Shown: positions 1,375 through 13,693, counted from the first letter of the stretch. The stretch: DNA of 64,000 nucleotides from an archaeon (GCA_018697295.1 JABHTJ010000002.1:154027-218026); one strand, 5' to 3'. Notes: a model not told the origin generated them from the letters alone. Numbers and translations: made by a program.

Positions 1375-1920
1375 ATGAGAACATTACAAGTTGAGCAGAT
1401 GAGAAAGATTAAGAAAGCTGTGCCTGAGATAGAGAAGAAAGTGAAGGTTAAGATTTCTTTTAGGAAGGGCTCTGTTGCTATCAAGGGAAATGAATTGAAT
1501 GAATTTTTAGTTGAGCAAATTATTCGTGCTGTTGACTTTGGGTTTTATGTGGATGATGCGCTTTTGCTTACTAATGAAACTTTTGTGTTGGAATTTATTT
1601 CTATTAAGGAGAATACTCGGCGGAAGAATTTGGAAGATGTTCGGTCCCGAGTGATTGGAACTGATGGTAAGGCGAAGCGAACGATTGAGAAATTGACTGG
1701 ATGTGTGCTTGTTGTTCATGAAAATACTGTTGGATTAATTGTAGATTCAATACATCTTGATTCGGTTGTCCAGGCACTTGAATCGCTTATCCGTGGCGCG
1801 AAGCATGGGAATGTGTTTGCGTACTTGGAAAAACAAAATGTTGGTCGTCGGAAATTTGATGATGAAGATTTGGGATTGAAAGATAATGTTGATGACGGTT
1901 TAGATGGGGACGAAGAATGA
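1375..1920 (+). CDS. KH-domain RNA-binding protein, Dim2/Pno1/Krr1-like
   Basis: 181 aa; VIGTDGKAKRTIEKLTGCVLVV KH GxxG region and layout typical of archaeal Pno1-like proteins. Confidence 0.75.
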   Translation: MRTLQVEQMRKIKKAVPEIEKKVKVKISFRKGSVAIKGNELNEFLVEQIIRAVDFGFYVDDALLLTNETFVLEFISIKENTRRKNLEDVRSRVIGTDGKAKRTIEKLTGCVLVVHENTVGLIVDSIHLDSVVQALESLIRGAKHGNVFAYLEKQNVGRRKFDDEDLGLKDNVDDGLDGDEE

Positions 1921-2531: not shown

Positions 2532-2575
2532 GATAAATACATTTAAATATCCTTTTTTGAATTTTGTTATATCGT

Positions 2576-2648
2576 GCTTCGGTAGCTCAGTGGTTAGAGC
2601 ACTCGGCTGTTAACCGAGGGGTCGAAGGTTCAAATCCTTCTCGAAGCG
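2576..2648 (+). tRNA. tRNA-Asn (GTT)
   Basis: Cloverleaf: acceptor GCTTCGG/TCGAAGC, anticodon stem CTCGG-CTGTTAA-CCGAG, T-arm GAAGG-TTCAAAT-CCTTC. Confidence 0.93.
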
Positions 2649-2809
2649 TTCTCGAATGATTTTAACCTGTTTTAAATCCCAATTCACAATTTGCATCTCG
2701 TTTCACAATTTGATATTTTGTATTTTTAAGGAGGTATTTTAGATAATTTGCAATTTTAGAAGAATTTAAATAAAATGGGTGTTGTCATTATTTAATTAAA
2801 CGTTAGATT

Positions 2810-2824
2810 TAAATATAAACCTCC
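2810..2824 (+). promoter_or_regulatory. Putative archaeal TATA-box promoter for the ATP-grasp operon
   Basis: TTTAAATATAAA in the intergenic region about 60-70 nt upstream of the racemase ATG. Confidence 0.4.
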
Positions 2825-2881
2825 TACTTTTTTAGTTACAAGTAAGGAAAATTAGAAAAATTTAAAAATGGAAAATTTAAG

Positions 2882-3685
2882 ATGAAACAGGTCGGGATTG
2901 TCGGGGGAGTTGGGCCCGAAGCTTCAAATAAGTTTTGTGAACTGTTAATTAAACATACTCCGTCGAAGAAAGATCAAGAAAATATTCCTTTTTTACATTT
3001 TTGTAATCCTCAAATTCCGGATAGGACTGATTTTATTGTTGGATGTGGGGAGAATCCATTGGATGAACTTATCAAAACTTCGATTCTTCTCGAAAATGCC
3101 GGGTCTGATTTTTTAGTCATACCTTGTAATACTGCTCATTATTTTTTAGCAGATATTCAAAGAAATGTTTCTATTCCTATTATTGATATGACTAAAATAT
3201 TGGTTAAGGAAATTTTATCTGAATATCCTCCTCTTAAAAAGGTCGGTATTTTGGCAACTACTGGAAGTATCGAGGCAGGAATTTATCAAGATTATTTTTG
3301 TAGTGTTGGTGTCGAGGCAATTTTGCCTAACTCTTCTGATCAGGAAACTTTGGTGATGAGGGCAATTTACGGTAATGATGGTATAAAGGCTGGGAAAAAA
3401 ATTTTGCCCCAGAAATTATTGATGAATGCAGCTCAAAAGCTAATTGAAGAGGGTGCTGAGGCGATTGTTCTTGGATGTACTGAAATTCCTCTTGTTTTGA
3501 AACAAAAAGATTTTGGAGTTAAATTATATGACCCTATGGAACTTACAGCTAAGGAAATCGTTCATTATGTTCGAGAAGAAAGTAAGGATAGTTTTGTTGG
3601 TGTTGATTTTGTTTTGCAAGACTTTGCAAAAGATTTGGGAAGAAAATTCGAGGGTGATAAGCTCGTCGAGGTTGCTTCTTATTAA
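2882..3685 (+). CDS. Aspartate/glutamate racemase family protein
   Basis: VGIVGGVGPEAS start; VIPCNTAHYF and VLGCTEIPLVL active-site Cys motifs. Confidence 0.85.
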   Translation: MKQVGIVGGVGPEASNKFCELLIKHTPSKKDQENIPFLHFCNPQIPDRTDFIVGCGENPLDELIKTSILLENAGSDFLVIPCNTAHYFLADIQRNVSIPIIDMTKILVKEILSEYPPLKKVGILATTGSIEAGIYQDYFCSVGVEAILPNSSDQETLVMRAIYGNDGIKAGKKILPQKLLMNAAQKLIEEGAEAIVLGCTEIPLVLKQKDFGVKLYDPMELTAKEIVHYVREESKDSFVGVDFVLQDFAKDLGRKFEGDKLVEVASY

Positions 3686-3686
3686 A

Positions 3687-4607
3687 ATGAAAGTAGTAAT
3701 TTTGCACCACGATTTGGAAAATTCTGAAAAAGAAATGAAGCGAATTATCGAAGGGAAATATTCTTCCGAGGTTCTTTTATTGGATATTCGGAAAACTAAT
3801 TTTGAAGAAATCGAAGATTTTTGCCCAGATTTAATTTTGAATAGGGTTTATGCTAGTGTTGCTAATCGAGACTATTGTTCTGTGAAAAAAACTTTGACAT
3901 TATTGAAAAAATTGGATGAGAGTTCGTTGTTAATTGTCAATTCTTATGATGCTTCTCGAAGCGACTATAGTAAATTTTTTGCTTTTAATTTGATGAATGT
4001 CGTTGGAATTAATACTCCTCGGTCTTTTTTATATGGTTTGAATTCTGATTTGGAGAAAACGGTTAAGACTCTTGGAGATTTTCCAATTATTGTTAAACGA
4101 GATAGTGGTGGTCGTGGAAAGGATTTAGCAAAATGTAACAATTTTGAAGAATTAAAGCAAGCTATTGGGGTTATTGAATCTTCGGAAGATTATAGTGGAG
4201 GGATTATTTTACAGGAATTTTGTGAACCTTTGGAGTCCTATGATTATCGTGTTTGGGTTGTTGGTGGTGAGGCTATTCTTTATCATAAGCGAACTTTGAT
4301 TTCATTGCAAGAAGATGAGCCGGCATGGCTTGCAAGTAGGTCCTTGGGCTCACAGATTTTGAGGGCTGATGCTAATATTCCTCTTGAACTTAAGAAATTT
4401 TGTGAAACTGCTGCCGAGGCTATTAATTCTAAATTTGATGTTTTAGATATTATTAAAACTAAAAATGGATTTTGTGTTATTGAACATAATCCTACGCCCA
4501 ATGTTCGTCCAGAGTATAAAGAAATCTTAGGTTTTTGTGTTATTGAAAAATTGCTTGAAAAAATTATTGAGAGATATGGCTTGGAGGCAGAAGTGAATGG
4601 TGAATGA
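3687..4607 (+). CDS. RimK-like ATP-grasp ligase
   Basis: FPIIVKRDSGGRGKDL, QEFCEPLESYDYRVWVVGGEAI, FCVIEHNPTPNVRPEY; ATG at 3687 chosen over upstream ORF start inside the racemase gene. Confidence 0.8.
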   Translation: MKVVILHHDLENSEKEMKRIIEGKYSSEVLLLDIRKTNFEEIEDFCPDLILNRVYASVANRDYCSVKKTLTLLKKLDESSLLIVNSYDASRSDYSKFFAFNLMNVVGINTPRSFLYGLNSDLEKTVKTLGDFPIIVKRDSGGRGKDLAKCNNFEELKQAIGVIESSEDYSGGIILQEFCEPLESYDYRVWVVGGEAILYHKRTLISLQEDEPAWLASRSLGSQILRADANIPLELKKFCETAAEAINSKFDVLDIIKTKNGFCVIEHNPTPNVRPEYKEILGFCVIEKLLEKIIERYGLEAEVNGE

Positions 4608-5886
4608 TATTAGTCGATTAATCGATTTTAATAAAATGGATGATTATTTGAATTTTACTCAGGATAAAAACTTAATTAGTGTTTTGAATGAACGATTCTC
4701 TGAAGATGGTCTGCTGTATGGTGATGAGCCTTACTCTTCCTGTTTAAATCCCCTTATTTTGACCAAACAAGGATTAAAAGATTCTGAAGAAATACCAAAA
4801 AAATTTATATCTTTGCTAAAAGATTTGGTTGCCTTAGTTCAAGATAAAAATTTGATGGAAGATGTAATTAATTCAAATCCCATATATCGTTTATTACGTA
4901 AAAATTTTGAGCTATTGGTTTCCTCTGATTTTTCTAAATTGCTTTATCGAGTAGATGGCCTAATTCATAATGGCAAGATTATGATTATTGAAGCGAATAC
5001 AAATTCTTCGGGGAGTATTGTGACTACAGAGAAAATGAACCGAATTGGTCTAGAGTTACTCGAGAATCCCTCTAATTTGGAATGCCATTCTCTTTTTGAA
5101 AAAGTTGTTGCTAATTTTTCTGAAGTCTACCATAAAAATTGCAAAAATGGAGAATTGTTTTTGATCATAGGAGATAAGAATGACTCTGAGAGTGCAGAAC
5201 ATAAATTATTTCGAGATAAGCTTCTTGAAAATAAAATTCCTACTAAACTAGTAGACTATCGAGAGAAAATAATCTATGAGGATTCTAATTTAGTTTATGA
5301 TCAAAAAAAAGTCGGAGTTGTTTATAGGAGAATTTTTCCTCTCGATTATAATGGAGATTTAATTAAAGCAGATCTTGAAAAAACAACCATATTTTTTAAT
5401 CCACTTTCTTCATACTTTTTAGCTACGAAAGCTTTTTTTGCTCTTTTCCACAAATTAAAAGATTCGGAATTGAAAGAACATAAAGAGTTTATTGAATCGA
5501 ACATAGTTTATACTTCTTTTATGTCTGATGTTGATCGAGAAGAGATTATTGAAAATAAAGATGACTATGTTTTAAAAGAAATTGAATTTAATTGTGGGAA
5601 TGGAATTTATATCGGGAAGGCAGAGAATAAGGAAGATTGGGAAAAAATAGTTTCTGCGATTGGTGATATGGCAATTGTTCAAAAATATATTGAGCCCTTG
5701 GCTTATGAATTTCTCGATAATAAAATTCCTGGAAGTCATAAAAGAAAATTTGATTTTAATCTGATTTGTATTGGAGAAGAACTTCAAGGTGTTTTTGTGA
5801 GGTCTAATGCTCCCGGAAACTATAAATCAAATACTGCTTGTGGTGCTTCGGAAGTTTTTTGTTTTTACGAAGGAGATAAAAAATGA
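4597..5886 (+). CDS. Circularly-permuted / glutathionylspermidine-synthase-like ATP-grasp protein
   Basis: YRVDGLIHNGKIMIIEANTNSSG, VVYRRIFPLDYNGD, FFNPLSSYFLATKAFFALF, VLKEIEFNCGNGIYIG. Confidence 0.65.
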   Translation: MVNDISRLIDFNKMDDYLNFTQDKNLISVLNERFSEDGLLYGDEPYSSCLNPLILTKQGLKDSEEIPKKFISLLKDLVALVQDKNLMEDVINSNPIYRLLRKNFELLVSSDFSKLLYRVDGLIHNGKIMIIEANTNSSGSIVTTEKMNRIGLELLENPSNLECHSLFEKVVANFSEVYHKNCKNGELFLIIGDKNDSESAEHKLFRDKLLENKIPTKLVDYREKIIYEDSNLVYDQKKVGVVYRRIFPLDYNGDLIKADLEKTTIFFNPLSSYFLATKAFFALFHKLKDSELKEHKEFIESNIVYTSFMSDVDREEIIENKDDYVLKEIEFNCGNGIYIGKAENKEDWEKIVSAIGDMAIVQKYIEPLAYEFLDNKIPGSHKRKFDFNLICIGEELQGVFVRSNAPGNYKSNTACGASEVFCFYEGDKK

Positions 5887-6851
5887 AAAAAGTTTTAGTT
5901 TCAATTAATCAAAGAATTGCTATAAATCCTCAAACAACTTTTGGAGGGCTAGTGAAGGTTTGTGAAGACAGCGATGCAGAAGTTGAATATATTGGAAGTA
6001 TTGGAAATAATTATGATTTTGATGGAGGACGCATTAGAACTTCTCGTTTTGTTGAGGGTGCATTTGTCGATGGAGGTTTTTCTTCTCCGAATGCAGATTT
6101 ATGGATTTTTTATGCTGATGGTTATCAGAATGATACTGCCGCAATGGGATTTTCAAGACCGTTAGATTATCATGAACGGATGATGTCTTTTTTAGAAACT
6201 CAAGTTTCTTCAGGGAATGTTGGCGAAGTAATAAATTCTCCTGAAACTGAGAGGAGAACTCTTAAGAGTTATTTTGCTCGATTAAATCCTGCCGAGTTTG
6301 GAATAATCCCCACTTACTTACTTGCTGGTGTCGAGGAATTGAGGGAAGCATTGAGAGAAAAAGGAAAACTTGTTGTTAAGCCGGACTGGGGAGGGGGGAT
6401 GAATGGAGTATCTCTATTATCTGAAGGTGACGATATTAGAGAATATGAATCTGCTGATTTTTCTGGATTGGTTTTTCAGGACTATTCTCCGGGAGAAGAG
6501 AAAAGAATGTGGGTTGTTGATGGAAAATTTGCAGATGGAAGATTGATTAGGATGCGAAATAGTCCTTGGGAAAATCATGCTCAAGATAGTGTTGTTTTGC
6601 CTTATAATCTATCTTCGGCAACAGAGGGGTTAGGAGGAATAGAATTGGCTGATTTTCAAAGAGATGTTGCTGCTACCGAAAAAATTGCGAAAGAAGCTGG
6701 GCTAATGATTGGTTCTGTCGATTTCTTGGGATCTCGAATTAATGAATTAAATGGTGCTGGAACTGGATATACTGCGGTTAATCGGTCTAATACTGTCCGA
6801 ATTGATGCGAGGAATCATTTGGATTCTTACATCCGATCATTAATTGACTGA
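5883..6851 (+). CDS. Glutathione-synthetase-like ATP-grasp protein
   Basis: KLVVKPDWGGGMNGVSLL, FQDYSPGEEKRMWVVDGKF, GSVDFLGSRINELN; 4-nt overlap with previous gene. Confidence 0.7.
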   Translation: MKKVLVSINQRIAINPQTTFGGLVKVCEDSDAEVEYIGSIGNNYDFDGGRIRTSRFVEGAFVDGGFSSPNADLWIFYADGYQNDTAAMGFSRPLDYHERMMSFLETQVSSGNVGEVINSPETERRTLKSYFARLNPAEFGIIPTYLLAGVEELREALREKGKLVVKPDWGGGMNGVSLLSEGDDIREYESADFSGLVFQDYSPGEEKRMWVVDGKFADGRLIRMRNSPWENHAQDSVVLPYNLSSATEGLGGIELADFQRDVAATEKIAKEAGLMIGSVDFLGSRINELNGAGTGYTAVNRSNTVRIDARNHLDSYIRSLID

Positions 6852-7792
6852 TGGTTCGAAATAATAATTTTTGCTTTAGTGATTTCAAGGTTGCCTTGGT
6901 TGCTCCTTCTCGTGGAACAGATTTTGTTAAATTGGAACTTGCGAAAAAGAGATTGAATTCTCTTGGAATAGCAGATATTGTTTATCGGAAAGATATTTGT
7001 GAGAGGAGCCTTGGCTATTGGTCTGGTGATTTTAAAAAGAGGGCAGAGGAATTGAATGATTTTTTTAGAGATGATAGTATAGATATAATCTGGTGTCTGA
7101 ATGGCGGATATACTTGCCTAGAATTAATTCCTTATCTGGATTTTAATTTGATTAGAGGATCTAGGAAATTGTTTATTGGGTTTAGTGATATTACAAGTAT
7201 ACAATATGCAATGTTTTATTTTTCCGGACTAGAAACCATCCAATTTCACATGCCTGGAGTATCTGGTTGGATGAACACTGTTGGAGAAATTAAAATGTTT
7301 GAAAAATTATTAACTTTTGGTGGAAATAGCTTTAAAATATCTGATGAGCAAATTTATTCCCAAGGTAGTTCTTCTGGAATTCTTATTGGTGGATGCATTT
7401 CTCTTTTGTGCGGGACTCTTGGAACGGGGCATGAGCTCGATACCAGGGGAAAAATATTATATCTTGAGGACGCAAATGTTTCTCCACAAAGACTTTACAA
7501 TGACCTTTGTCATTTGCATCTCTCCGGAAAATTTGAAAAAATTACTGGCTTAGTGATTTCTAAAATGGCAAACTGTGGAGACTATAAACCTTTTTTAGAT
7601 TTATTTTTAGAAAAACTTAATTTATTATCCATTCCAATAATTAAAGAATTTGATGCAGGTCATTGTGATTTTAAGATTCCTATCGTTCTTGGTGGTGAAT
7701 GTTCTATAGATTCTGAGAAAAAAAATATTTTTTTCGGATTTTCTCAAAATGCTCTTGGGAACCGTAAGCCAAATTTCACAAAATCCTTATAA
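6851..7792 (+). CDS. S66-family LD-carboxypeptidase / microcin-C immunity MccF-like
   Basis: VALVAPSRG, IIWCLNGGYTCLELIPYLD, FIGFSDITSIQYAM, GGCISLLCGTLGT, LYLEDANVSPQRLYNDL; TGATG overlap with previous gene. Confidence 0.8.
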   Translation: MVRNNNFCFSDFKVALVAPSRGTDFVKLELAKKRLNSLGIADIVYRKDICERSLGYWSGDFKKRAEELNDFFRDDSIDIIWCLNGGYTCLELIPYLDFNLIRGSRKLFIGFSDITSIQYAMFYFSGLETIQFHMPGVSGWMNTVGEIKMFEKLLTFGGNSFKISDEQIYSQGSSSGILIGGCISLLCGTLGTGHELDTRGKILYLEDANVSPQRLYNDLCHLHLSGKFEKITGLVISKMANCGDYKPFLDLFLEKLNLLSIPIIKEFDAGHCDFKIPIVLGGECSIDSEKKNIFFGFSQNALGNRKPNFTKSL

Positions 7793-7814
7793 ACTTATTT
7801 ATCTAATAGATTAC

Positions 7815-8381
7815 ATGCAACTAAATGATGCGATAAAAAAGAGGCGTAGTGTGACGAGGTATCTTAACAAGAAACCAGATTGGAGAAAAGTTGTGCGTGC
7901 AATTGATGCTGCGCGTTATGCTCCTAATGCAGATAATCTTTTTGCTATGAAATTTATTTTAATCTCTAATGAAGAAACTATCAATAAGTTTTTTGATGCG
8001 TCTCAGCAAGATTTTGTTTCTAAGGCGAAATATTTGGTCGTTGCTGTGAGTGATGATTCAAAACTTGTTGCTCATTACAAAGAGAGAGGAACTCGATATT
8101 CCGCACTTCAAGCAGGGGCCGCGATTCAGAATTTTTTATTAGAATTAATGGAACAAGGACTTGTTACGAAATGGGTTAAATATTTTTATGACGAGAAGGT
8201 TAAGGAAATTTTGGGAATTCCAGAGAAGATGATTGTTGAAGGATTATTTCCGATTGGACTTGAGACGAAAATTAAGACTGGTGCAGAAGTTTTAACTGAT
8301 TTGGAAAATATTGTGTTCTTTGAGAAGTGGGGAGAGAAGAAGATGACGCCTAATCCTATTGTGACGTTGGAGAATTCTTAA
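7815..8381 (+). CDS. Nitroreductase family protein
   Basis: MQLNDAIKKRRSVTRYLNKKP, AARYAPNADN; own TATA-like TTATAAA just upstream. Confidence 0.75.
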   Translation: MQLNDAIKKRRSVTRYLNKKPDWRKVVRAIDAARYAPNADNLFAMKFILISNEETINKFFDASQQDFVSKAKYLVVAVSDDSKLVAHYKERGTRYSALQAGAAIQNFLLELMEQGLVTKWVKYFYDEKVKEILGIPEKMIVEGLFPIGLETKIKTGAEVLTDLENIVFFEKWGEKKMTPNPIVTLENS

Positions 8382-8434: not shown

Positions 8435-9514
8435 CTAACTTAGATTATCTAATCCAAGTTCGTTTACCGAAATAGTATCTTCTTGCTCGAATTGGCTAGT
8501 GTTTTTTCCGAGAATGTATGGGGATTTAACTCCTGTCATAATCGTAATAACTCGTACTCGTCCTTGGAATTCCTTATTTACTCGTGCTCCGATAATAACT
8601 TGTGCTTCAGGCGATAAATTCTCTGTGATTAATCGTCCGATGTTATCGAATTCTTCAAGTTTTAAGTCTGGTCCGCATGTAATATGGACAAGTGCTCCGG
8701 TTGCTCCTCGATAATCTACATCCAGTAATGGGTGAGTTAATGCTTGTTGAACGGCTGCGTCCACTCGTGCATTTGAATTGTCTTCACCAATACCTATCAC
8801 TGCTACATCTCCGTTTTTCATAATAGAAGAAACGTCGGCATAATCTAAATTAATAAGAGAAGGAAGTGTAATTGTTTCTACGATTCCTTTAATCATTGTT
8901 GAGACTAATTCGTTAGCTACAGCGAATGCTTGTTCCATTGGTAATTGTCCTGCGATATCAACTAAACGGTTGTTATCAAGAACAATGACTGTGTCTACTG
9001 ATTCACGTAATTCTTGGAGTCCAAATTCTGCTTTGTCAATTCTTGCTCTTTCGGCTTCAAAAGGCATCGTCACTACGGCGATTACTACGGCTCCTGCTTC
9101 TTTTGCGAGTTGAGCAACTACTGGAATAGATCCAGTTCCTGATCCTCCTCCCATTCCTGCTAGGACAAAAACCATGTCCGAATTCGAAACGGCTTTTTTC
9201 AAGTCAGTAAGGGATTCTTTTGCTGCTTCTCGACCTCTCTTGGGATATCCTCCGCATCCAAGTCCTCTTGTTAATTCTTTTCCAATAAGGAGCTTTTCGT
9301 CGGACTTTGTAATCGATAAATGAAGTGCATCTGTATTAAGTGCATAAATTGTAGCACCGTTGATACCTTTGTTAAATAACCATGTGGCCATATTACACCC
9401 ACAACCTCCACATCCAAAAACTTTAATGTTAGCCTTTCCGGCTTTTAGTTCATCAAAATTAATCGAGTTAGCTTCTGAGTTTTGTATAGCTTCTTTTGCA
9501 AAATCTAATGGCAT
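8435..9514 (-). CDS. ftsZ: Cell division protein FtsZ (tubulin/FtsZ GTPase)
   Basis: GMGGGSGTGSIPVVAQLAKE signature; VTMPFEAE; NTDALHL. Confidence 0.93.
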   Translation of the reverse strand: MPLDFAKEAIQNSEANSINFDELKAGKANIKVFGCGGCGCNMATWLFNKGINGATIYALNTDALHLSITKSDEKLLIGKELTRGLGCGGYPKRGREAAKESLTDLKKAVSNSDMVFVLAGMGGGSGTGSIPVVAQLAKEAGAVVIAVVTMPFEAERARIDKAEFGLQELRESVDTVIVLDNNRLVDIAGQLPMEQAFAVANELVSTMIKGIVETITLPSLINLDYADVSSIMKNGDVAVIGIGEDNSNARVDAAVQQALTHPLLDVDYRGATGALVHITCGPDLKLEEFDNIGRLITENLSPEAQVIIGARVNKEFQGRVRVITIMTGVKSPYILGKNTSQFEQEDTISVNELGLDNLS

Positions 9515-11542: not shown

Positions 11543-13693
11543 ATGGAACAAAAAAAGGTGATTAATTTTATTTTGATTACAATTTTGAGTGTTGCAGTTA
11601 TTATTATTTTATTGGCAAATTTTGGCGTTGATGTTTTTAGTAGTCCGAGGATGGAAGAAAAATATCTAGAATCTTTTGCTGAAACTGAAAAAGGAGTTAT
11701 CTTGAATGCAGAAGTTTCAGATCTTTCCTCGACACTTATTTATTCTACGAATATAGCTAAAGATGAAATTCATACCATTGGAGTTTATCTTAATGGGGAA
11801 AAACAAGATTTGAATTTGAAATTTCATGAAGATTTTAAACAGCTAGATACAGGTGTTTATCTTGATCCGAAGAAATTAATCGACGGAAATAATGATGTTT
11901 ACTTAAAAATTCTTTTGAAGAATAGAAAGACTTTTGAAGATCGGCGGCTGTTGAGATTTGATTTAAGTGGTCCAGAAATTATTTCTATGGATACTGCAGA
12001 TGATGCAAGTTATCAAATTATTGATGTTATCGATGTCGCAGAGATTAGTGCGGTATATTATCTGGACGGTATTGGGACTTCAATTGATTCTTTAATAGAC
12101 TTGGGAAGTGGAAGATATAAGCTCGTAGTAGGAGATATGGGTCTTGAAGACATTGTTTATTATTTAGCGGATGTGAATGGAAATAAAAATGCTTATTCTC
12201 CTCAGAGTCTGGTTGGCGGATTTGACCGAATTGAGAAATTAGTTCCTTCGATGAACCTTCCTCAAGAAATTAATCCACAATTGATTTCTTTTGAAGATAT
12301 TATCCAAGTAACCAAATTTGGTGTAACTGAGGAAGGTGAAACTATTGATCTATCGTTGAGCCCTGCATCTTGTGAATATCGTGCAAAGTTTGTTTCGTTT
12401 TTCTTGTATGATGACTATTCTTTAGAAACTGGATTTGCTCGAGCACATACCAATCTTAACATGATTTATGGGGGATATATTTTATCAATTAACCGTTTTA
12501 ATCAACAATTAGTTCCTACCGATTATTCTCCCCTCAGTTCCCAATTGATTGTTCCCGGAGATTATTATTTGGTAGGTCTTGATAAAAATAACCTTGGTCC
12601 ATTTGAAGGCATTGTAGAGGAAGATTATGATGTGAGTTATTACACTGACGAGAATTTAGTTATTCATGAAATTCATATCCCTAATGGTGGTTTTAGGGTA
12701 ACTGATAACCATTACTTCTTTGAGCGAATTAAGGCATTTAATGATGGTTCTTTAACAACCTCTGTTGAAGGATTTGTTGAAGCTGTTACAAATCCTATTG
12801 ATAGGGAATTGATTTTGATTGCAGATTCTCTTAGCGATGCGGCCGGATCTACGCGTCCACGGGAAGGGATGATGCTGTTGTCTAATACTAATTCTGTTGT
12901 CGTTGGTCATGAAATGGCACATAGTCTTGGACTTGGACATTGGAATGCAAATGGTCCTGGAGTATCTGCAGTAAATCTTATGGATACTAATCCTTATCCT
13001 AGCACTCGATTGGAATGGAATCAGCTTGAGCGAATTCATGCTGCTCTTTGTGGAGATCCTGCAAATAAAATTTCGTTAGAGGGAAGATATGGTGGTTTTG
13101 GAGTAAATCTTGATTATGAGGGATTTCTTGCAGGAGATGGTACCAATAAATGTGGTAATGGTATGATTGCTAAAAATGAGCAAGATGATTGGGAATGGTG
13201 TGAAGATAGTTTTGAGGAAGTTCCGGTTTGGGGAAGTGAAGTTTGTCCAGATATGTATTCTCGTCCTATTGTAAAATGGCCGAGCGTTTATAGTTGTAGT
13301 TCAAGTTGCCTTTGTTCTGGGGGTGGAACTGGAAGTGAACCTCCTGCTCCTGGTACGGGAGACTCTGTTCCTCCAGGTGGTGGTGGTAATCCTGGTGGCG
13401 GGCCTAGCACTCCTCCTGGCGGGCCTCAAGGAAAAGATTGTGCAACTTGCAAGCCCGAGCCAGTTTTTGAACAAAATCCAGATAGTTTTTTAATGGAACC
13501 TACCGGAGAATACGAATGTCCTGATAAAGATTGTCCGAATGGTGCTGGGCCTAATGGAGAAATTGTTGAGATGGAATGTAAACCTGATATGAGTCAATTA
13601 TCTCCCGGACAACCACCCTATTCATGTAAGTGTCAACCTGCCACTGGAAAGAAACCAAAAGAAGCTTCGGATAGATCTTTTGAAGAATTTTAA
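11543..13693 (+). CDS. Membrane-anchored/secreted metzincin-like zinc protease with Pro/Gly linker and Cys-rich C-terminal domain (paralog A)
   Basis: N-terminal hydrophobic segment; VVGHEMAHSLGLGHW (HExxHxxGxxH); GGGTGSEPPAPGTGDSVPPGGGG linker. Confidence 0.75.
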   Translation: MEQKKVINFILITILSVAVIIILLANFGVDVFSSPRMEEKYLESFAETEKGVILNAEVSDLSSTLIYSTNIAKDEIHTIGVYLNGEKQDLNLKFHEDFKQLDTGVYLDPKKLIDGNNDVYLKILLKNRKTFEDRRLLRFDLSGPEIISMDTADDASYQIIDVIDVAEISAVYYLDGIGTSIDSLIDLGSGRYKLVVGDMGLEDIVYYLADVNGNKNAYSPQSLVGGFDRIEKLVPSMNLPQEINPQLISFEDIIQVTKFGVTEEGETIDLSLSPASCEYRAKFVSFFLYDDYSLETGFARAHTNLNMIYGGYILSINRFNQQLVPTDYSPLSSQLIVPGDYYLVGLDKNNLGPFEGIVEEDYDVSYYTDENLVIHEIHIPNGGFRVTDNHYFFERIKAFNDGSLTTSVEGFVEAVTNPIDRELILIADSLSDAAGSTRPREGMMLLSNTNSVVVGHEMAHSLGLGHWNANGPGVSAVNLMDTNPYPSTRLEWNQLERIHAALCGDPANKISLEGRYGGFGVNLDYEGFLAGDGTNKCGNGMIAKNEQDDWEWCEDSFEEVPVWGSEVCPDMYSRPIVKWPSVYSCSSSCLCSGGGTGSEPPAPGTGDSVPPGGGGNPGGGPSTPPGGPQGKDCATCKPEPVFEQNPDSFLMEPTGEYECPDKDCPNGAGPNGEIVEMECKPDMSQLSPGQPPYSCKCQPATGKKPKEASDRSFEEF

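Follow-up and report, generated by a model that had tools for sequence, protein, structure and literature searches.

Positions 2882-7792 of a 64,000-nucleotide (nt) stretch of archaeal DNA (GCA_018697295.1 JABHTJ010000002.1:154027-218026; the whole stretch is referred to here as the window) carry five open reading frames (ORFs) on the + strand, encoding an amino-acid racemase (RAC), a RimK-like ATP-grasp ligase (G1), a circularly permuted GSP-synthase-like ATP-grasp ligase (CP), a GshB-like ATP-grasp ligase (G3) and an S66 serine peptidase (S66; Table 1). The source genome is a draft of 731,777 bases in nine contigs, with a completeness of 85%, and was placed in family f1. An earlier interpretation made from the DNA alone (the sequence-only reading) had described these genes as a translationally coupled operon for the ribosome-independent synthesis of a small peptide containing a D-amino acid. 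The coordinates were confirmed, and the junctions between consecutive genes, measured 5' to 3' at +1, -11, -4 and -1 nt, are those from which coupling had been proposed. The G1 frame is open back to a TTG at 3513; most homologues begin at the ATG at 3687. All five genes retain intact catalytic residues. A scan of the locus for terminators found none, promoter-like sites at the locus did not exceed the number expected by chance, and its base composition gave no clear island signal.

Table 1. Genes of the cluster and its immediate neighbours, with positions in the window (aa, amino acids)
Feature	Position	Strand	Basis
RAC: Asp/Glu-type amino-acid racemase, cofactor-independent, 267 aa	2882..3685	+	Pfam, PDB, NCBIfam, homologue distribution
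G1: RimK-like ATP-grasp amide ligase, 306 aa	3687..4607	+	Pfam, alignment, PDB matches
CP: circularly permuted GSP-synthase-like ATP-grasp ligase, 429 aa	4597..5886	+	Pfam, L093 homologue
G3: GshB-like ATP-grasp ligase, 322 aa, divergent; S66-paired in most relatives	5883..6851	+	Profile, alignment, tree with L093
S66: serine peptidase, MccF/LD-carboxypeptidase type, 313 aa	6851..7792	+	Pfam, triad S112/E206/H271
KH-domain protein; left neighbour kept in genus, outside cluster	1375..1920	+	Pfam KH_KRR1_2nd; congener neighbourhoods
tRNA-Asn(gtt); left edge of variable cargo interval	2575..2649	+	Same place in congeners
Nitroreductase-family protein; housekeeping right edge, outside cluster	7815..8381	+	Present in 15/16 genus genomes

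Catalytic assignments

RAC matches Pfam Asp_Glu_race at 132 bits, and its nearest solved relative is the aspartate racemase of Pyrococcus (1jfl, 1.9e-58). The two cysteine motifs noticed by the sequence-only reading are present as C82 and C199, which together with R48 and K169 are invariant in the alignment of relatives. R48 and K169 align with R48 and K164 of the Pyrococcus enzyme, the two ligands of the substrate carboxylate. RAC also passes the NCBI equivalog cut-off for cysteate racemase CuyB (204 against 190 bits), as seven of its relatives do at 213-252 bits, and this score by itself leaves the substrate unfixed. Because the cysteate-racemase model also exceeds its cut-off, we grade formation of D-aspartate from these comparisons only as likely, with cysteate or glutamate as possible substrates.

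The distribution of the racemase shows that it is dedicated to ATP-grasp clusters. Among 32 genomes, 16 with a cluster and 16 without, a racemase profile at E<1e-80 matched 10 of the 16 cluster genomes and none of the 16 others, with all ten matches lying at cluster coordinates (one-sided hypergeometric probability of this confinement ~1e-4). This result is not circular, since the clusters had been located through RimK, GshB-like or S66 queries. At the related locus L092 the cluster racemase is a pyridoxal-phosphate (PLP) enzyme of the alanine-racemase fold, closest to ornithine racemase Orr (355.8 bits; cut-off 480). Of the indirect evidence, this swap between non-homologous racemases speaks most strongly for a D-amino acid as the thing that matters in these clusters.

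The three ATP-grasps have the Mg-ligand triplets D254/E266/N268, D120/E132/N134 and D280/E288/N290, which, along with the lysines, are invariant among relatives; the absence of ATP/Mg ligands would, by the terms set beforehand, have refuted the sequence-only reading. G1 matches Pfam RimK (PF08443) at 49 bits, above the cut-off of 21, and its closest solved relatives are RimK and alpha-glutamate ligases, although it falls below the cut-off for the RimK alpha-L-glutamate ligase family (TIGR00768, 79 against 143 bits). CP scores 30.8 bits to GSP_synth (PF03738, curated cut-off 29.3) and has the R-x-D...E-x-N signature. A second copy was found only at L093, where it occupies the same cluster position with 35% identity and scores 54.8 bits to GSP_synth; a search of the genome-contig collection found no CP relatives, and the sole PDB match, to Cp1B of E-64 biosynthesis, was non-significant (E=0.13). 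G3 matches Pfam GSH-S_ATP weakly, at 14 bits and under the cut-off, while a profile of six GshB-like relatives matches E. coli GshB (PDB 1gsa) at 1.3e-6. The CP score at L093 and the match of the G3 relatives to GshB thus firm up the two weaker assignments, and the three ligase types named by the sequence-only reading stand. With 18 bits against NCBIfam equivalog cut-offs of 272-299 for glutathione synthase, G3 is classed as GshB-like in fold family only.

Both domains of the peptidase are recognised (Peptidase_S66, 102 bits; S66C, 84 bits), the triad S112/E206/H271 is invariant among relatives and the closest solved relatives are MccF proteins, in agreement with the LD-carboxypeptidase assignment first made. 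It is the single S66 match in the source genome. Enzymes of this family are known to hydrolyse either LD-peptide bonds or, in processed microcin C, the bond between Asp and the nucleotide. Among loci found with the RimK profile, S66 is present at 8 of 10 that have G3 and at none of 4 that lack it (Fisher p 0.015). Pairwise divergences of G3 and S66 are correlated (rho 0.56, p 0.0025), as are those of G1 and G2, a middle ligase found at other loci (rho 0.62, p 0.012), and no correlation was found between RAC or G1 and G3 or S66; these are exploratory values from ten comparisons of strongly diverged sequences. The pattern suggests that the genes work in two pairs: one for core ligation, the other made up of a terminal ligase and a peptidase that reverses or trims the bond made by that ligase. 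In a congener (L037:5867-7717, - strand) S66 is fused to a C-terminal DUF1861 domain (PF08950) in a protein of 617 aa.

Distribution and gene exchange

The cluster is a member of a modular family in about a dozen Pacearchaeota/Woesearchaeota-type DPANN genomes and not a fixed operon (Table 2). A G1 profile built from four loci matched, at E<=1e-20, 12 of the family's 181 genomes and 13 of the 378 in the class (the sets overlap), and within the class related gene orders span four families or more. Since the succession of genes is found again outside the genus and family, the arrangement is beyond chance. The conservation of gene order on which the sequence-only reading depended holds for the first four genes, which recur at L093, and for related orders elsewhere; the full five-gene set was seen at the studied locus only. 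Loci have one to three ligases, and nearly all junctions are overlaps or gaps of <45 nt. G2 is related to DcsG/GshB, and its relatives at five loci have the D-cycloserine synthetase DcsG as their best NCBIfam match (43-59 bits; cut-off 360).

Table 2. Gene orders at the studied and related loci
Locus	Order
Studied locus (f1)	RAC-G1-CP-G3-S66
L093 (family f73)	RAC-G1-CP-G3
L006 (f67, Woesearchaeota ARS73), L040 (Pacearchaeota)	RAC-G1-G3-S66
L084	RAC-G1-G2-G3-S66
L081	RAC-G1-G2-G3
L080, L079	RAC-G1-G2
L037	RAC-G2-G3-S66
L039, L078	G1-G3-S66 (L039 contig stops just upstream of G1; racemase there not judgeable)
L082, L083	G1-G2-G3-S66
L091 (f15)	RAC-G1-G2 + further 440-aa protein, putative ATP-grasp by eye, no Pfam match
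L092 (f15)	G1 + another ATP-grasp + PLP racemase
L005 (f34)	G3 + octopine-dehydrogenase-type enzyme + S66

The neighbourhood KH protein - tRNA-Asn - nitroreductase - FtsZ recurs in the genus, and the interval between tRNA-Asn and nitroreductase (2650-7814 at the studied locus) is variable. It holds an ATP-grasp cluster at the studied locus, L037 and L081, contains GT2/GT4 glycosyltransferase genes or other genes at L110, L111, L115, L116, L118 and L119, and is nearly empty (78-210 nt) at L112, L113 and L117. In genome G431 the cluster adjoins a gyrase-like gene (L080) and the tRNA-Asn site is empty (L117). The cluster is accessory cargo at this site, sporadically present. The nitroreductase was considered as a sixth member and rejected, being found in 15 of 16 genus genomes with or without a cluster. 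Viral carriage was likewise rejected, as searches of viral contigs with the RimK and CP-grasp profiles found no relatives.

Individual genes of the cluster have different affinities. The f1 racemases fall into a single clade (100/99); a grouping of the studied RAC with that of L093 was rejected (approximately unbiased test, p 0.003). By contrast, the studied G3 groups with L093 of the other family (97/94), its joining with the congener L081 being rejected (p 8e-7), and the studied G1 groups with L093, L092 and L084 (100/99), its grouping with congeners being rejected (p 0.0004). The groupings were chosen for test after the identities were known. These trees indicate that ligases were exchanged between lineages while the racemase stayed; for G3, ancient paralogy instead of transfer is a possible source of the pattern.

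Discussion

We consider it reasonably probable that these genes form an accessory operon that assembles, without ribosomes, a short peptide carrying a D-acidic residue, S66 having a protecting or trimming role. Confinement of the racemase to the clusters, its non-homologous replacement and the lack of Mur ligase and L,D-transpeptidase matches all support this proposal of the sequence-only reading. According to the model, whose steps are taken from family chemistry, the racemase would convert an L-acidic amino acid, most likely aspartate and possibly cysteate or glutamate, to its D form. Successive amide bonds would then be made by G1, CP and G3 via acyl-phosphate intermediates, a chemistry established for the ATP-grasp fold, and a free product of about two to four residues might result; the order in which the ligases act is a guess. 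S66 would hydrolyse the carboxyl-end bond, most likely one made by its GshB-like partner, and the cleavage could provide self-protection of the producer or trim a precursor. Such a peptide may have a specialised use in competition or interaction.

Several observations weigh against this model. The racemase is missing at L078, L082 and L083, S66 is missing at the G3-bearing loci L081 and L093, and no exporter is among the operon genes. The AlphaFold models of CP (mean predicted local distance difference test score 34, from a single sequence) and G3 (40, from five rows) are too low in confidence for use, and the genome is a draft with a completeness of 85%. The substrate of the ATP-grasps could also be a protein, glycan or cofactor. 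Tentatively, and with more doubt than confidence, we extend the model to a horizontally exchanged combinatorial D-peptide system of DPANN archaea, in which a resident racemase and interchangeable ATP-grasps might make variable peptides directed against or toward hosts and neighbours, with S66 as an MccF-like self-immunity factor.

An alternative that we consider unlikely is cell-surface decoration, in which the ligases would put D- and L-amino acids on a surface or lipid-linked glycan and S66 would trim the stem, following the logic of peptidoglycan on another backbone. Congeners hold glycosyltransferases at the same tRNA-Asn site, S66 is fused to DUF1861 in L037, and at L040 a YkuD L,D-transpeptidase-like protein with a twin-arginine translocation (TAT)-like start is encoded two genes upstream of the cluster (1493-2209, - strand); in addition, Woesearchaeota/Pacearchaeota proteins are predicted to attach to bacterial walls (PMC8204110). 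However, none of the clusters read contains a glycosyltransferase, no Mur ligase was found in the source genome nor in 31 of the 32 genomes examined, and YkuD, absent from the source genome, occurs in 4 of 16 cluster genomes against 1 of 16 others (5 of 32 overall). A role in murein or pseudomurein was rejected: the source genome (85% complete) has no match to Mur ligase (PF08245) or YkuD, which argues against a murein-like wall, and the sequence-only reading had found murein no easy explanation.

Rather improbable, in our view, is an intracellular metabolite such as a peptide osmolyte, metal ligand, thiol-like redox compound or cofactor tail, with S66 serving turnover. RimK/LysX and GshB, the nearest described relatives of two of the ligases, have such roles, and at L005 an octopine-dehydrogenase-type enzyme lies between ligase and S66, as in opine pathways, but the patchy distribution, the swapping of ligases and racemase and the cargo site fit core physiology poorly. 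Graspetide-like maturation of a ribosomal peptide, or protein tagging, by the ATP-grasps is very improbable. The GshB-like relative at L084 weakly matches ATP-grasp families of ribosomally synthesised and post-translationally modified peptides (RiPPs; 22-31 bits) and the microviridin ligase AMdnB is among the PDB matches of the GshB-like profile, yet all scores are far below curated cut-offs, and the overlap of the genes leaves no room for a precursor inside the cluster. A graspetide was rejected because the upstream flanks of 15 loci have no conserved small ORF. Scavenging or detoxification, in which S66 and the racemase would act on murein or antibiotic peptides taken up from outside and the ligases would reuse the fragments, is the most remote of the readings: murein LD-peptides and compounds of the microcin C type are indeed S66 substrates and MccF proteins are the nearest solved relatives, but an operon with two or three ligases that each consume ATP looks like one for synthesis, and ligase clusters without S66 exist (L079, L080, L091, L092). 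A defence system was rejected, there being no PADLOC match.

Peptide assembly by the cluster, the reading that we prefer, has partial parallels among known systems. The literature searched yielded no account of a system with these genes together, which agrees with the sequence-only reading. In Enterococcus faecium the ATP-grasp ligase Aslfm has a linked Asp racemase as its source of a D-acidic residue, a parallel to the studied locus. Its substrate, however, is a peptidoglycan precursor, and the studied genome has no Mur ligase match. D-Asp ligases of bacterial walls, Aslfm among them, are cited in PMC2922099. Stand-alone ATP-grasp peptide pathways independent of non-ribosomal peptide synthetases are known for phosphonoalamides (PnaB/PnaC, PMC11867202) and E-64 (Cp1B, PMC12568646). 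In both, ATP-grasps amide-link free amino acids and are clustered with a building-block enzyme, and with intact ATP/Mg sites in its ligases and a dedicated building-block enzyme the studied locus reads as a further ATP-grasp peptide-ligase cluster. Those pathways are bacterial or fungal, with other warheads and other ligase families, and neither an Asp-type racemase nor S66 appears in the descriptions consulted.

DcsG resembles the ligases studied here in acting, as an ATP-grasp, on a D-amino-acid derivative, but scores are far under its 360-bit cut-off (12 bits for G3 with NF058666) and the studied locus has CP in the middle position. MccF and LdcA (MEROPS S66) share fold family and Ser-Glu-His triad with the studied S66, which is linked to a peptide-ligation operon; they are longer, at about 336-371 aa against 313 aa. 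No MccA/MccB-type gene of a microcin C system is among the cluster genes, nor do the upstream flanks have a small ORF in common. The archaeal ATP-grasp Ddl_archaea (OG0001014) also takes part in peptide assembly, working with Mur ligases and MraY-like proteins in pseudomurein synthesis (PMC11915815); at the studied cluster it scores 11 bits at best, where the cut-off is 500. A survey of archaeal RiPPs lists 221 clusters in Nanoarchaeota, in a text without the words ATP-grasp or racemase (PMC12144867). Recurrence of the set in rearranged forms in related archaea suggests a small-molecule pathway not described before, in organisms regarded as making few compounds of their own. A coupled cluster with swapped ligases and a retained D-amino-acid step would be a small, testable peptide-synthesis system, all of its genes are short enough for expression, and the product and the role of S66 are directly resolvable. 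It would add new ATP-grasp ligases, and archaeal use of D-amino acids without detectable murein or pseudomurein genes.

Other observations

The related loci have some unusual partners: ornithine-racemase-like, octopine-dehydrogenase-type, C39-like (PF11814/PF13529) and AAT acyltransferase-like proteins at L092:9115-11491, L005:9923-12515 and L091:4095-5126. In a Gallionellaceae metagenome-assembled genome (L059:6074-7954) a RimK-like relative (33% identity) adjoins a TupA-like ATP-grasp. At L082:381-455 and L083:2833-2906 a tRNA-Glu lies on the opposite strand a few bases from the S66 end of the cluster, a second case of a cluster beside a tRNA. FtsZ is found near the cluster at 8435-9514 of the window, as in the genus, and in another gene context in f15 (L091:2288-3352, L092:11708-12775), which is probably coincidence. 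Elsewhere in the window, positions 93-1340 encode a probably extracellular FG-GAP-type repeat protein, and a predicted secreted protein at 11543-13693 carries the zinc-protease motif GHEMAHSLGLGH.

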